From Streptomyces hundungensis (lineage in GTDB: Bacteria > Actinomycetota > Actinomycetes > Streptomycetales > Streptomycetaceae), in NCBI RefSeq assembly GCF_003627815.1, contig NZ_CP032698.1:5642001-5706000 (forward strand): a stretch of DNA of 64,000 nt, given 5' to 3'. Numbering within the stretch: position 1 is the stretch's first letter; every line of letters starts with the position of its first letter. Below are positions 10,788 through 60,000 of this stretch, piece after piece. The position numbers were made by a program, and so were the translations under genes. The notes under the pieces are model-generated. The model saw nothing but the letters and a program-made list of their open reading frames with translations. It was not told the origin of the DNA and did no database searches.

Positions 10788-11429
10788 CTAGGGGGCCAGG
10801 ATCAGGTTGTTGCCGGCCTGCTTCGCCGCGGCGTAACGCTTCGCGACGTCCTGCCAGTTGACGACCCGCCACATCGCCTCGATGAAGTCGACCTTCTGGT
10901 TCTTGTACTGGAGGTAGAAGGCGTGCTCCCACGCGTCGAAGACCAGGATCGGGGTCGAGCCCTGTCCCACGTTGCCCTGGTGGTCGTAGATCTGCTCGAC
11001 CACGAGGCGGCCGCTGATCGGCTCGTAGGCGAGGACGCCCCAGCCCGAACCCTGCGTCGTCGCCGAGGCCTTGGTCAGCTGGGCCTTGAACTTGGCGAAG
11101 GAGCCGAAGGACTCGGCGATGGCGTCGGCCAGCTCGCCGGTGCCGTCCTTGTCCAGGGGCTCGCCGCCGCCGTCGCCCGTCATGTTGTGCCAGTAGATCG
11201 AGTGCAGGATGTGGCCGGAGAGGTGGAACGCGAGGTTCTTCTCCAGGCCGTTGATCGCGCCCCAGGAATCCTTGTCGCGCGCCTCGGCGAGCTGCTCCAG
11301 GGTGTCGTTCGCGCCCTTCACGTACGCCGCGTGGTGCTTGTCATGGTGCAGCTCGATGATCTCCGGGCTGATGACGGGTTCGAGCGCCGCGTAGTCGTAC
11401 GGAAGTTCAGGAAGCGTGTACATGGCCAT
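10788..11429 (-). CDS. sodF: Superoxide dismutase, Fe/Mn family, 213 aa
   Basis: Cytosolic enzyme converting superoxide to peroxide and oxygen. It starts [18 protein letters not shown], the usual N terminus. Metal ligands are visible: His in ELHHDKHH, His in [12 protein letters not shown], then DAWEHAFY providing Asp and His. Length is normal. In S. coelicolor the Fe-type SodF is repressed by the nickel-sensing Fur-family regulator Nur, while Ni-SOD (SodN) replaces it when nickel is present. A matching Nur-type operator lies 36 bp upstream of this ATG, which favours the Fe enzyme. RBS GGAGGG precedes the ATG by seven bases. Confidence 0.96.
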
Positions 11430-44384: not shown

Positions 44385-44651
44385 ACACATACTGACGCGA
44401 TGTCAGCCATATAGCGCTCATGACCTGGGGCGACCGAAGGAATTTCGGTCGTCCCTGGGCATATGCGGGCCGACTTCGGGAACGCATCGCCCCGACACGA
44501 CGTCACCATTACTGAGGTGGACCACCGCGCCGTGTCCGCGCAGGCCGGACTACGATGGGGCCTCACGCTCAACGCACCCACCTCGCCGACCTGAGAAGCC
44601 GTCAACGCTCGATTAGGGAAGGCCGGACGCATCCTCATGGGGAGCAACAAA

Positions 44652-52774: not shown

Positions 52775-54699
<1,925 letters not shown>

Positions 54700-54714: not shown

Positions 54715-54743
54715 GGGCCCCCCGTCGCAACGGCGAGGGGCCC
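54715..54743 (+). terminator. Terminator after the radical SAM gene
   Basis: GGGCCCC at 54715-54721 and GGGGCCC at 54737-54743 with a smaller GTCG/CGGC inner stem. Confidence 0.7.
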
Positions 54744-54762
54744 GTCGTGCGTCCTTGCCCAC

Positions 54763-55896
54763 ATGGAGAACCGCCCGGCCCCGCAGGGCCCTGAAGGCTG
54801 CCTGACCGTGGCGATCCGCATCCCGGTACGCATCGTGGTGCTGGTCCTCGTCGTTCCCGTGCGGATCGTCTGGGACCTCTTGGTGGTCGGGGCCAAGGCC
54901 CTGCGGCGAGTGGTGCTCGCGCCCCTGTGGCGCGGGCTCGTCGTGATCCCGTTCGGGTGGTTGTACCGCTGGGTGCTGACCCCGCTGGGGCGGTCAACCG
55001 CCTGGCTGGCGAGGGGAGTTGGCGTGGTCGTCGCCGCGGTGGGGGAGGCGGTCGGGGTCGCCGTCACCTGGGTCCTGGTGACGCTGATCGCGGCCCCCTC
55101 GGTCTGGCTGTACCGCCAGGTGCTCACGCCGCTCGCCCGGATCGCCGGCCACACGATCAAGGCCCTCGCGATCGGCCTCACCCGGGTGCTGTGGGCGGTG
55201 TTCGTGTGGCCTCCCGTCACCCTGTGGCGCCTCCTCCTGTTCCCGCTGCTGCGCTACGGAATCCTCCTGCCCGCGTCCTGGCTCCTGCGCACCCTGCAAA
55301 GCGCCGCGGCCTGGCTCTACCGCACCGCCCTCACCCCCACCGGCCACGCCCTCGCCCGGCTGGCCGCGCTGATCGGTGCCGGTCTGGTGGCGCTGGGGCG
55401 GGGGCTCGTGGCGTTGGGGGTGCTGTTGGTGGTGGTTCCGGTGGGGTGGGTGTATCGGAGGGTGCTGACGCCGCTCGGGCGGGGGCTGGCCGTCGTCGTG
55501 CGGGAGATCGGGCACGCGATCGGCCACGCCTGGCGGGTCGCCGGACACCTCTCCCGGGCGATCGGGCGCGGCCTCAAGTGGCTCGCCCACACCCTCGTGG
55601 GACGGCCGACGCGCTGGGTGTACGTCGTGATTCTGACGCCGGTCGGCCACGCGGTACGGGACGCCGTGTGGCGACCGGCCGCCCGGGCCGCGCGCGAGGC
55701 GGGCCGCGCCGCACGCCAGGCGCTGACCACGGCCCGCGAGACCGTACGCACCGCCCGGCAGGAGGCCTGGCGAGCCCTTGTCGGCGGCCCGCCCCGGGAA
55801 CGGACCGAGCACCGGGCGCGTACTCTGGGTAGTACAACTACTGCCTCCGGCGCGGTGCCCGCCCCCGAGATCTCCCTCAGCAAAGCCGAGGGATGA
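54763..55896 (+). CDS. Membrane protein with repeated WxYR-LTP modules, 377 aa, unrecognised family
   Basis: Highly hydrophobic and basic. A motif W-[LV]-Y-x2-[VAI]-L-T-P-x-[GA]-[RH] occurs five times, starting at Trp66, Trp115, Trp184, Trp229 and Trp285 (for example GWLYRWVLTPLGR, GWVYRRVLTPLGR). Two degenerate modules fit near residues 37-57 (LRRVVLAPLWR) and 155-164 (LWRLLLFPLLR). Between motifs lie Val/Leu/Ala-rich helices. The last 75 residues are an Arg/Ala-rich helix (AAREAGRAARQALTTARE) and a polar tail. No RBS before ATG 54763; GTG 54808 after GAAGG is an alternative. It lies between the radical-SAM gene and its DUF2344 partner. I know no function for it. Confidence 0.75.
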   Translation: MENRPAPQGPEGCLTVAIRIPVRIVVLVLVVPVRIVWDLLVVGAKALRRVVLAPLWRGLVVIPFGWLYRWVLTPLGRSTAWLARGVGVVVAAVGEAVGVAVTWVLVTLIAAPSVWLYRQVLTPLARIAGHTIKALAIGLTRVLWAVFVWPPVTLWRLLLFPLLRYGILLPASWLLRTLQSAAAWLYRTALTPTGHALARLAALIGAGLVALGRGLVALGVLLVVVPVGWVYRRVLTPLGRGLAVVVREIGHAIGHAWRVAGHLSRAIGRGLKWLAHTLVGRPTRWVYVVILTPVGHAVRDAVWRPAARAAREAGRAARQALTTARETVRTARQEAWRALVGGPPRERTEHRARTLGSTTTASGAVPAPEISLSKAEG

Positions 55897-55987
55897 GCCG
55901 GGTGGCGCACCGGCCGTGACCGGAGGGGCCCCCACAGGACGGTGGGCGGCGCTCACCGCGCCCGCCCCGCACCGAGGAGAAGAACCA

Positions 55988-56809
55988 CTGGGCAAGCGAC
56001 AGCCCGAAGGCCCGCCGCCCGCACCTGCGGTGCAGCGCATCCGACTGCGCTACACCAAGCGCGGCCGCCTCCGGTTCACCAGCCACCGTGACTTCCAGCG
56101 CGCCTTCGAGCGGGCCCTGCGCCGCGCCGAGGTGCCCATGGCCTACTCGGCGGGCTTCACCCCGCACCCCAAGGTCTCCTACGCCAACGCCGCGCCCACC
56201 GGCGTCGGCTCCGAGGCCGAATACCTGGAGATCGCGCTCACCGCACAGCGCGACCCCGAGAAACTGCGCGCCCTGCTCGACGAGTCGCTGCCCACCGGGC
56301 TCGACATCATCGACGCCGTCGAAGCCCGCACCTCGGGCCTCGCCGACCGACTGACCGCCTCCATCTGGGAGCTGCGCCTCGACGGCGTCACCGTCGAAGA
56401 GGCCGGCAAGGCAGTCGAGACCTTCCTCGCCGCCGAGAGCGTCGAGGTGCAGCGCAAGACCAAGAACGGCATGCGCACCTTCGACACCAGGGGCGCGGTC
56501 GCAGAGCTCCAGGCGCTTGCCCCGCAGGCCGATAGGCCTCTCGGCGACGCCTGTGCGATACTGCGGCTGGTAGTGCGGCACCTGACACCTGCCGTACGAC
56601 CCGACGACGTCCTGTCCGGTCTCCGAGCTGTGGCCGACCTGGCGCCGCCGGTCCCCGCAGCGGTGACCAGGCTGGCGCAGGGGCTCTTCGACGAGGAGTC
56701 CGGCACGGTGACCGACCCGCTCGCGCCCGACCGCGAGGCAGCCCCGGCCGCTCCACAAACGGCCGCCGGGACCGTCTCTGCGACGGCGCCGGAAGGTCCC
56801 GCCGCGTAA
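55988..56809 (+). CDS. TIGR03936-type radical-SAM-associated protein (DUF2344), 273 aa, probable CTG start
   Basis: RIRLRYTKRGRLRFTSHRDF and AYSAGFTPHPKVSYANA are family signatures; this domain accompanies TIGR03960 radical SAM proteins in many bacteria and is sometimes fused to them. No ATG, GTG or TTG fits in frame at the family N terminus. A CTG at 55988 lies eight bases after GAGGAGA and yields (M)GKRQPEGPPPAP. A GTG at 55916 is in frame but has a poor site and would add 24 odd residues. Function unknown; tRNA or sulfur-insertion chemistry has been guessed for the pair. Its partner gene here is frameshifted. Confidence 0.85.
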   Translation: MGKRQPEGPPPAPAVQRIRLRYTKRGRLRFTSHRDFQRAFERALRRAEVPMAYSAGFTPHPKVSYANAAPTGVGSEAEYLEIALTAQRDPEKLRALLDESLPTGLDIIDAVEARTSGLADRLTASIWELRLDGVTVEEAGKAVETFLAAESVEVQRKTKNGMRTFDTRGAVAELQALAPQADRPLGDACAILRLVVRHLTPAVRPDDVLSGLRAVADLAPPVPAAVTRLAQGLFDEESGTVTDPLAPDREAAPAAPQTAAGTVSATAPEGPAA

Positions 56810-57045
56810 GGGCGGTCGTCGTAGCGCAGCCCTGGCACTCGGAGCCACCTGGGTCGGGCCGCGCACAGACCTAAAAGACTTTCGCCAGGCCGTACGCACA
56901 CCGCATACGGAACCGGCGAGCCAGACATAACAGCTCCCGTGCGGCGCCCGCGCCCCGGACGGCGGCACCCGCGCACACCAAGCGGGCCGTGCCGCCGGAC
57001 CGGAACAGGCGCGGCGCCCGGGAGCGTGACGGGAGCTACGCCCGC

Positions 57046-60000
57046 ATGCTTGAGCAGAACGAATCCGGTACCACCCGGGACAACGACCAGAACAGCCCCA
57101 GCGACACGCTGCCGCCGCGCCGCAGGCGCCGCGCGGCGTCGCGGCCCGCGGGGCCGCCGGTGGGTGCGACACCCGCCGAGCAGGCCACCGAGCCGACGGC
57201 GGGGACCGCCGAGTTGGCCGCGCCCGCCGCCGAGCAGTCCGAGGCCCCCGCGCCGCGTGCCCGTCGCCGTGCGACCCGTAAGGCGACGGCTCCGGCCGGT
57301 GCGCCGCAGGCCGCCGAGGAGATCGTGGAGGCCACTGCGGCCCCGGTCGCCGCCGAGGCATCCGCGCCCGCCGCCGATGAGCCCGAGGCTCCCGCGCCGC
57401 GTGCCCGTCGCCGTGCGACACGTAAGGCCACCGCTCCGGCTGGTGCGCCGCAGTCCGCCGAGGAGATCGTGGAGGCCGCCCCGGCCGCCGTCGCCGAGGC
57501 GCCGGAGAGCGTGTCCGGGAACGTCGAGGAGGCCTCCGAGGCCCCCGCGCCGCGTGCCCGTCGCCGTGCGACCCGTAAGGCGACGGCCCCTGCTGGTGCG
57601 CCGCAGGCCGCCGAGGAGATCGTGGAGGCCGCCCCGGCCGCCGTCGCCGAGGCGCCCGAGAGCGTGTCCGGGAACGTCGAAGAGGCCTCCGAGGCCCCCG
57701 CACCGCGTACCCGCCGCCGCGCCACCCGCAAGGCGACCGCGCCGCAGACCACCGTCGCGGCCCCCGCCGCCGAGATCGTCGTCGCCGACGAGCTCGACGA
57801 GGACGAGGAGGCGCAGGAGAGCGCCGAGGCCGTCGCCGAGGCCCCCGTCGCCGAGGAGCCCGCCGCGGCTCCGGCGCCCCGCACCCGCCGCCGCGCCACC
57901 CGCCAGGCCACCGCACCCGCCGGCGCGCCCCAGGCCGCGCCCGAGGAGCCCGCCGCGCCCGAGGAGCCGGCCCGGGTCGAGACCCCGGCCGCCGCCCAGG
58001 ACGACGCGCCGCGCGGCCGCACCCGCCGCCGCGCCGCCCGGCCCGTGTCCACCCCGCAGTTCACCCCCGTCGAGCCGGAGCCGCAGCCCGCGCCGCAGGC
58101 GGAGGAGCCCGCCACGGGCCGCAGCCGCGGCGCCAAGGGCCAGAGCGCGTCCGGCCGTCGCCGCGCCACGCGCCCCGCCGTCGCCGTCTTCCAGGCGCCG
58201 GTCTTCACCGAGCCCATGTTCCAGACCCCGGAGACGGCCGCGGCCGCCGCTGCCGCCGCCCGCGTCGAGGAGCCCGAGGAGACCGAGCCGACCTCCGTCG
58301 AGGCCGTCGAGACCTTCGAGGCACCCGAGCCGGCCGCCGAGCCGCAGGGCCGCTCGCGCCGTCGCCGCCGCCGTGGCGAGGCCGCCGAGCCCGCGCAGGA
58401 CAAGGCCGTCGACGAGCCCGTGGACGAGCACGTCGAGGAGCCGGCCGAGGCCGAGGCCGAAACGGAGTCCGAGGACGCCGACGACGACCGCCCCTCGCGC
58501 CGCCGTCGCCGTGGTGGCCGCCGCCGTCGCCGCGGTGAGCCCACCGAGGCCGAGGACGCCGCCGAGGAGCACCCCGACGAGCAGGCCGACCAGGCCGAGG
58601 GCGCCGAGTCCGACGAGGACGACGACGAGCACGACGAGCACGAGCACGAGGACGAGGACGGCACGCCGTCCGCGGCCGGAACCAGCAGCAGCCGTCGCCG
58701 GCGCCGCCGCCGTCGCCGCTCGGGCGACTCGGGCCCCGACGGCGAGCAGGGCCCCGACGACCCGGAGCGTACGGTCGTCAAGGTCCGCGAGCCGCGCCCG
58801 GTGCGCGAGCGCATGGACGCCCTCACGTCCTCCTCCTCCGACGAGGTCCAGTCCATCAAGGGCTCGACCCGTCTGGAGGCCAAGAAGCAGCGCCGCCGCG
58901 AGGGCCGCGAGCAGGGCCGCCGCCGCGTCCCGATCATCACCGAGGCCGAGTTCCTGGCCCGCCGCGAAGCCGTCGAGCGCGTCATGGTCGTCCGCCAGAG
59001 CGGCGAGCGCACCCAGATCGGCGTCCTGGAAGACGACGTGCTCGTCGAGCACTACGTCAACAAGGAGCAGGCCACCTCGTACGTCGGCAACGTCTACCTG
59101 GGCAAGGTCCAGAACGTGCTGCCGTCCATGGAGGCCGCGTTCGTCGACATCGGCAAGGGCCGCAACGCCGTCCTGTACGCCGGCGAGGTCAACTTCGAGT
59201 CGCTCGGCATGGGCAACGGCCCGCGCCGCATCGAGGCCGCCCTCAAGTCCGGCCAGTCGGTGCTCGTCCAGGTCACCAAGGACCCCATCGGCCACAAGGG
59301 CGCCCGCCTGACCAGCCAGGTCTCGCTGCCCGGCCGCTACCTGGTCTACGTGCCCGAAGGCTCGATGACCGGCATCAGCCGCAAGCTGCCCGACACCGAG
59401 CGCGCGCGTCTGAAGACCATCCTAAAGAAGATCGTCCCCGAAGACGCGGGCGTCATCGTGCGCACCGCCGCCGAAGGCGCCAGCGAGGACGAGCTGCGCC
59501 GTGACGTCGAGCGCCTCCAGGCGCAGTGGGCCGACATCCAGAAGAAGGCCAACCAGATCTCGACGTCCTCGCCGTCGCTGCTCTACGGCGAGCCGGACAT
59601 GACCGTCCGGGTCGTCCGCGACATCTTCAACGAGGACTTCACCAAGGTCATCGTCAGCGGTGACGAGGCGTGGGAGACCATCCACGGCTACGTCCAGCAC
59701 GTCGCCCCGGACCTCACCGAGCGGCTTTCCCGCTGGACCAGCGAGGTCGACGTCTTCGCGACGTACCGGATCGACGAGCAGCTCGCCAAGGCCCTGGACC
59801 GCAAGGTCTGGCTGCCCTCCGGCGGCTCGCTGGTGATCGACAAGACCGAGGCGATGATCGTCGTCGACGTCAACACCGGCAAGTTCACCGGCCAGGGCGG
59901 CAACCTCGAAGAGACCGTGACGAGGAACAACCTCGAAGCGGCCGAGGAGATCGTGCGCCAGCTGCGGCTGCGCGACCTCGGCGGCATCGTGGTCATCGAC

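Follow-up and report, generated by a model that had tools for sequence, protein, structure and literature searches.

A Streptomyces repeat-protein gene with a putative ECF-type promoter and a 3' end that probably overprints promoter-like DNA

Repeats of the apolipoprotein A-I type are built from amphipathic helices punctuated by proline. The protein described here resembles them in having tandem, proline-separated amphipathic helical units in variable number and no predicted globular core, yet it is far more hydrophobic and Trp/Arg-rich, with an 11-residue Pro-to-Pro unit containing W-x-Y-R. On the regulatory side, the nearest described systems are the sigmaE promoters of Streptomyces coelicolor, among which are sites such as GGGAAC-N17-CGTCTG and the published target mreBCD, with a GGGAAC-N17-CGTCTC site listed at 157 (PMC6767563). 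Site spacers are 18 bp long in 59 of 100 cases, with a range of 16-19 (PMC10771440). The locus shares with these promoters a GGGAAC-like -35 with a 17-18 nt spacer, a CGTC -10 ahead of the repeat-protein gene and an mreB target in the same region; it differs in that the -35 of this gene is often GGATCC or GCATCC, in that most loci keep a constant distance of 13 nt to the ATG, and in that a second site embedded further downstream reads CGTAC instead of CGTCT. The gene, hereafter the module gene, is a genomic neighbor of the radical-SAM pair TIGR03960/DUF2344 (TIGR03936), to which it is accessory, and lies upstream of a relative of RNase E, an enzyme that is membrane-tethered in Escherichia coli (PMC10126417). 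Its features within the window, i.e., the whole 64,000-nucleotide stretch of Streptomyces hundungensis DNA analyzed here, are as follows.

52775..54699, + strand: B12-binding radical-SAM gene (TIGR03960), split over two frames near 53896-53911.
54727..54754, + strand: putative ECF (sigmaE)-type promoter, GCAAC-N18-CGTCC, the CGTC of which begins 13 nt upstream of the ATG.
54763..55896, + strand: module gene with an ATG start, encoding a Trp/Arg-rich, probable membrane repeat protein of 377 aa.
54796..54948, + strand: conserved N-terminal segment, residues 12-62, GCLTxAIRIPVRIVVLVLVVPVRxVWDLL (invariant columns of an 87-row alignment).
54949..55497, + strand: variable middle spanning residues 63-245 and holding the modules at residues 66, 115, 150 (degenerate), 184 and 229.
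55498..55782, + strand: conserved C-terminal domain, residues 246-340, a predicted amphipathic helix with a module at residue 285.
55796..55826, + strand: promoter-like GGGAAC-N17-CGTACTCT over the codons for RE ... RTL, which likely drives DUF2344.
55820..55835, + strand: operator-like inverted repeat GTACT-N6-AGTAC over the embedded -10, recognized by eye and the weakest of the elements.
55871..55896, + strand: predicted RNA hairpin spanning residues 370-377 (codons ISLSKAEG-stop), with the stop codon inside its 3' arm.
55988..56809, + strand: DUF2344/TIGR03936 gene with a probable CTG start (Pfam and NCBIfam matches from 56030 on).

The setting is as an earlier note on this DNA had described it, with the radical-SAM gene upstream, DUF2344 downstream and an RNase E/G-family gene (PF10150, E 1.3e-102) beyond; mreB, mreC, a PBP2-like transpeptidase and an FtsW/RodA gene lie in the same neighborhood. 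Among the best 80 of 416 relatives in a GTDB scan, which are related by descent and do not represent independent events, the DUF2344 match starts 62-347 bp after the module match in 80/80 loci, whereas the radical-SAM match ends at most 0.7 kb upstream in only 45/80; it lies 1.1-5.0 kb away in 20/80, and the fetched flank of 15/80, some of them contig-cut, showed no such match. In nine genomes of three other genera, picked from 50 matches in other genera, DUF2344 adjoins the module gene in 9/9, and the radical-SAM gene falls inside the short flank in 6/9. The gene is therefore not always between these two partners, a point that the earlier note had proposed to check. About 10-31 kb separates the radical-SAM and module genes in several genomes (G007, G011, G016, G024, G033 and others), so that this junction tolerates large insertions. 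TIGR03960 scored above its cut-off in 57 of the 61 genomes searched, and its split in the window, in a single-contig genome (model positions 2-366 in one frame, 362-598 in another), reflects either a sequencing error or a real lesion. The apparent start of DUF2344 reads CTGG[GC]C in 116 of 119 stretches (one of 120 was dropped for want of a DUF2344 match, and the three outside the CTG pattern were dropped as well), an unusually fixed non-standard start codon.

The W-x-Y-x3-L-T-P modules at 45-69-residue spacing, of which the earlier note had counted at least five, are confirmed; five exact ones begin at residues 66, 115, 184, 229 and 285 (spacing 49, 69, 45 and 56), and W-x-[YF]-x4-T-P-x-[GA], found five times in the protein, occurred 0.0006 times on average and at most once in 20,000 shuffles of the same protein. 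Two degenerate copies had also been claimed, and these correspond to PPVTLWRLLLFP at residues 150-161, which represents a sister type P-x3-L-W-R-Y-V-L-V-P known from homologues, and to a weaker copy identified by eye, LRRVVLAPLWRG, near residues 47-58. The repeat is better captured as P-x3-x-[YW]-R-x2-L-x-P-x-G-[RH]. Conservation of the modules in orthologues, on which the earlier reading had been staked, was borne out: a relaxed pattern recovered 1,205 units across 235 homologues, with 2-10 (median 5) per protein, most often spaced 49, 27, 20 or 56 residues apart, while exact modules number 0-5 per protein among the 120 matches listed. Homologues range from 184 to 475 aa, and length is correlated with module count (r 0.60, 235 proteins).

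This family is real and is undescribed in the libraries and literature searched. A search of 5.8 billion proteins, in which 7,995 candidates were scored, yielded 1,208 matches at E <= 1e-3; the 120 matches listed are from Streptomyces wherever the source gives an organism, are named hypothetical or "integral membrane" proteins, and carry no precomputed Pfam domain. A second query representing a shorter subfamily (220 aa, genome G015) gave 492 matches among 7,997 scored, again without a Pfam domain among the 120 listed. The module protein itself reached a best E of 0.32 against Pfam, below cut-off, and had no match in NCBIfam or among PDB sequences, in agreement with the earlier note, which had recognized no family, and with the structural comparison below. 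The literature search returned nothing on SCO2601 or on the module gene, and nothing relevant on TIGR03960/DUF2344/TIGR03936.

By whole-genome search, 173 of 297 members of the bacterial family match, in 4 of 17 genera, and a single-protein search of 60 relatives plus the own genome gave matches in 29/61, including weak matches away from this locus in G008, on a different contig and containing a stop, and in G051, which belongs to a different bacterial family. Within the genomes searched, the module family is restricted to Streptomycetaceae apart from the weak G051 match. Of 37 genomes of the genus, 24 carry the module gene in a single open frame and three (G005, G006, G025) have a broken copy or remnant; it is contig-cut in one and gave no profile match in nine. 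The spacer ahead of DUF2344 in these genomes was taken whole or in its DUF2344-proximal part (G001 and G033 in part, G017 up to the contig end). Two of the nine retain traces there: a translated match covering roughly the final 80 residues in G028, which may be a remnant, and a match to the tail bases alone in G022; no translated match to the family was found in the spacer of the other seven. Being absent or broken in 12/37 genomes, the gene is common but dispensable, and it is intact in only 24/37.

The protein is hydrophobic and Trp/Arg-rich, in support of the earlier reading, with 4.8% Trp and a net charge of +33 (family median +27). Hydrophobicity is periodic above chance in the middle and the C domain, as expected of an amphipathic helix repeat: the helical moment at 100 degrees is 0.52 in the C domain (shuffled 0.27, sd 0.05), 0.30 in the middle (0.21, sd 0.02) and, weakly, 0.37 in the N segment (0.26, sd 0.07). 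AlphaFold2 modeled the window protein as helices 13-61 and 64-340 (mean pLDDT 75, pTM 0.35) and predicted a single helix 20-216 for the 220-aa subfamily member (mean pLDDT 83, pTM 0.33). Foldseek comparison of both models with the PDB gave no match, lone long helices carrying little fold information. The interfacial turns proposed earlier for the modules are not apparent in the models, in which continuous helices run through the LTP motifs, at low pTM. From composition and modeling, the module protein quite probably associates with the membrane, its long helices, kinked at prolines, being placed within or along the inner leaflet on this reading.

Comparison of seven pairs by Nei-Gojobori on mafft alignments, which is rough owing to strong GC bias and module shuffling, partitioned the protein body. 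In the N segment, dN/dS was 0.05-0.15 in six pairs and 0.26 in the seventh (L110), with dS 0.2-0.8 and dN 0.01-0.11; in the middle it rose to 0.48-0.62; and in the C domain it was 0.24-0.46 (dS 0.29-0.58, dN 0.07-0.20). This pattern demonstrates, at the level of substitutions, that the body (residues 12-340) is under protein-level purifying selection.

Starts could be placed in 68 of 81 loci (window plus 80; the 13 dropped had no placeable N-terminal motif or ATG start), and CGTC or TGTC begins exactly 13 nt before the ATG in 53 of them, plus nine more if an in-frame ATG 9 nt downstream is the start, for a total of 62/68 loci with this geometry. When upstream stretches were shuffled 300 times, the [CT]GTC tetramer 4-24 nt upstream reached a mean of 11.3 and a maximum of 21 loci, vs. 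62 observed. In loci aligned on CGTC, position -20 is A in 60/61, -18 is C in 51/61, and -19 may be T, A, C or G; the window promoter has a spacer 1 nt longer than the aligned loci. The -35 is frequently GGATCC or GCATCC, not GGAAC; the sequence fits the sigmaE/ECF pattern (GGAAC-like -35, 16-19 nt, CGTC) with a degenerate -35. At the starts of DUF2344, [CT]GTC at -13 was found in 0/116, a weak control as the bases upstream of DUF2344 are themselves conserved. The 13-nt geometry was not seen in placeable loci of genera g18 and g27 (L186, L187, L189, L190) or of genus g20 (L182, L183), and so looks like a Streptomyces feature. Since a -10 box this close to the ATG allows no leader, a leaderless mRNA is implied, and we consider a leaderless ECF-type promoter quite probable for the module gene. 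A second candidate sigmaE site in the window, GGGAAC-N17-CGTC at 44478-44504, lies 158-159 bp before mreB, matching the listed S. coelicolor mreB position. SCO2599-2602 are not among the SCO26 entries in the consulted part of PMC6767563 (SCO2609-2611, SCO2629).

The strongest conservation in the protein is C-terminal (near-invariant ARTLGSTTT...PEIS in the 87-row alignment), and, as the earlier note missed, it appears to belong to a DNA element and not to the protein. The eight codons RTLGSTTT have a mean GC3 of 0.34 vs. 0.92 in the body, lower in 66/66 loci, and the tail Arg is CGT in 66/66, a codon that makes up 5.9% of body Arg codons (66 of 80 loci; in the 14 dropped, a pattern requiring R[TN]LG found no in-frame tail). 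Between the window and relatives L101-L106, synonymous differences over residues 347-377 amount to 0-1 of 27-29 identical residues, whereas the N and C domains of the same relatives show 9-27 of 43-83, and tail dN and dS are both low (0.03-0.12); L110 has no aligned tail and was excluded from this comparison.

The same bases also stand just upstream of DUF2344 in genomes without the module gene. GGAAC lies exactly 17 nt ahead of CGTA in 22/24 intact-gene genomes (all except G004 and G030), 3/3 broken-gene genomes and 6/9 genomes without a gene match (including G028), G017 having been left out of this table because of its contig end. The other three gene-less genomes (G018, G031, G035) have no GGAAC and keep only the -10 half, and G030 matches poorly at both halves. 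In G015, the protein stops at 2618, ahead of the entire block (2631-2660); in G004, whose protein stops at 11289, the -10 half comes afterwards, at 11347, with GGAAC absent. Overall, 107 of 119 stretches match the -10 block at >=10/13 positions, 96 of these 107 with GGAAC at 17 nt and 11 with no GGAAC within 30 nt, and the embedded block is absent from the three genomes outside the family that were covered (G037, G038, G041). Low GC3, near-zero synonymous change and a block that persists without coding together indicate that the tail is selected as DNA; a constraint on the DNA is demonstrated by these comparisons, and we hold with high confidence that the tail overprints a DNA element. The nature of this element is a further step: the most economical reading is that it likely comprises the promoter and leader of DUF2344, as its conservation independently of coding and the synonymous constraint on the tail would suggest.

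The embedded -10 CGTACTCT differs from the sigmaE CGTCT, and its TACTCT also fits the housekeeping TANNNT; the block is hence called ECF-like and is assigned to no sigma factor. A genome-wide search for an exact regulon of the element returned none, its only zero-mismatch site in the own genome being the locus itself; at <=2 mismatches there were 47 sites vs. 28 for a reversed-pattern control. No description of such an embedded promoter was found in the literature searched.

Downstream of the block, the ISLxKxG-stop hairpin pattern occurs in 51/119 stretches, all 51 of which fold, into hairpins of 30 to 48 nt. Within the 30-nt class (24 sequences, 12 distinct), 7/9 pairs are kept in 12/12 distinct sequences, two pairs are broken in 1-2 of the 12, and a two-sided change is seen at a single pair (C-G, U-A, U-G). 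With so little covariation, structural selection on the leader hairpin is suggested rather than proven, and the case for a covarying structure is weakened. An Rfam search of 55600-57100 returned one weak match alone, on the opposite strand and attributable to chance, so the hairpin does not correspond to any catalogued RNA. The inverted repeat over the embedded -10 could be a repressor or activator site; in relatives it takes the form GTACT-N6 to N9-AGTAC, with GTACTC-N6-GAGTAC in G008.

Other leader types occur upstream of DUF2344. Some genomes form a second group, in which the leader is short and lacks the hairpin. Another class (L156, L170, L171 and G036, the last also designated L097) carries GC-rich hairpins CCCCGC...GCGGGG, which flank sequence resembling the DUF2344 start and, in L156, L170 and L171, form two hairpins ~58-60 nt apart by eye. 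A likeness of these hairpins to a type I-E CRISPR repeat was considered and dropped, their period and flanks being unlike those of a CRISPR array.

Several other explanations of the locus were weighed. The near-invariance of tail residues in protein alignments would be expected if the tail were a protein motif, e.g., a docking or sorting signal, and if the DNA likeness in gene-less genomes reflected recent gene loss, for which the decaying copies in G005, G006 and G025, and possibly G028, offer some support. This is very unlikely, given near-zero synonymous change, rare codons, a G015 protein without the tail whose DNA block stays after the stop codon, and the retention of the block in G008 and G010 and of its -10 half in G018 and G035 with no translated family match in the spacer; because the conservation extends to synonymous sites, a docking role was rejected. 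Equally hard to credit is the opposite extreme, in which the protein is a spurious translation and the locus only a transcribed regulatory region ahead of DUF2344. The gene's absence or breakage in 12/37 genomes and its fast middle (dN/dS 0.48-0.62) are compatible with that idea, yet dN/dS stays mostly at 0.05-0.15 in the N segment and at 0.24-0.46 in the C segment, modules are retained across four genera, and the gene has its own conserved upstream geometry.

For the protein itself, an ordinary polytopic, transporter-like membrane protein with modules as membrane-spanning hairpins is an alternative that we regard as rather unlikely. It would account for the hydrophobicity (six listed 19-residue windows exceed Kyte-Doolittle 1.6, three of them overlapping, to give four regions), for uncharged runs of 17-22 residues within the family and for the name "Integral membrane protein" given by sources to some homologues; however, uncharged runs are mostly of 6-7 or 10-11 residues and so fall short of a span, the number of modules varies freely, and no family match was found. 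The constant adjacency of DUF2344 (80/80 loci, 9/9 other-genus genomes) could instead mean that the protein works with the radical-SAM/DUF2344 pair or with RNase E, for instance by helping to place the latter at the membrane. This too seems improbable, as the radical-SAM and DUF2344 genes persist without the module gene in nine genus genomes, the radical-SAM gene has often moved away, and the adjacency is partly explained by shared regulatory DNA.

We therefore favor, at roughly even confidence because role and topology are uncertain, a membrane-binding repeat protein that is stress-inducible in the sigmaE manner, the 3' end of its gene overprinting the DUF2344 promoter and leader. In Streptomyces, transcription of the module gene would start at an ECF/sigmaE-type promoter with a -10 ending ~8 nt before the ATG, most likely producing a leaderless mRNA. 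The body of the protein, selected as such, combines conserved ends with a fast-changing middle of Pro-punctuated modules. Composition, hydropathy and AlphaFold models suggest that these modules form long kinked helices embedded in, or resting on, the membrane's cytoplasmic face, where Arg, Trp and Tyr would hold them, and that module number may set the length of membrane covered. The last ~30 codons would read through the putative DUF2344 promoter and the leader hairpin, an overlap that would make the conserved tail a by-product of selection on DNA. The weakest step is the last: made under envelope stress beside mreB-mreC-PBP2-RodA, the protein might coat or scaffold the stressed membrane, a role that promoter and neighborhood hint at and that we put forward tentatively, as somewhat doubtful.

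A more speculative extension, to which we give little credence, is a cis switch in which polymerase from the stress-induced, leaderless module gene crosses the DUF2344 promoter and the stop-codon hairpin. If this were true, stress, membrane coating and DUF2344 expression (perhaps also that of RNase E) would be coupled, and the variable modules would represent a fast-evolving membrane coat on a fixed regulatory end. Independently of such a switch, the tail offers a candidate regulatory region for the DUF2344 unit, perhaps including RNase E, and near-perfect protein conservation that apparently arises from an embedded promoter-like element urges caution before conserved tails are called protein motifs. 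The module family adds to streptomycete biology an uncharacterized yet widespread protein with a testable regulator and a likely stress context.
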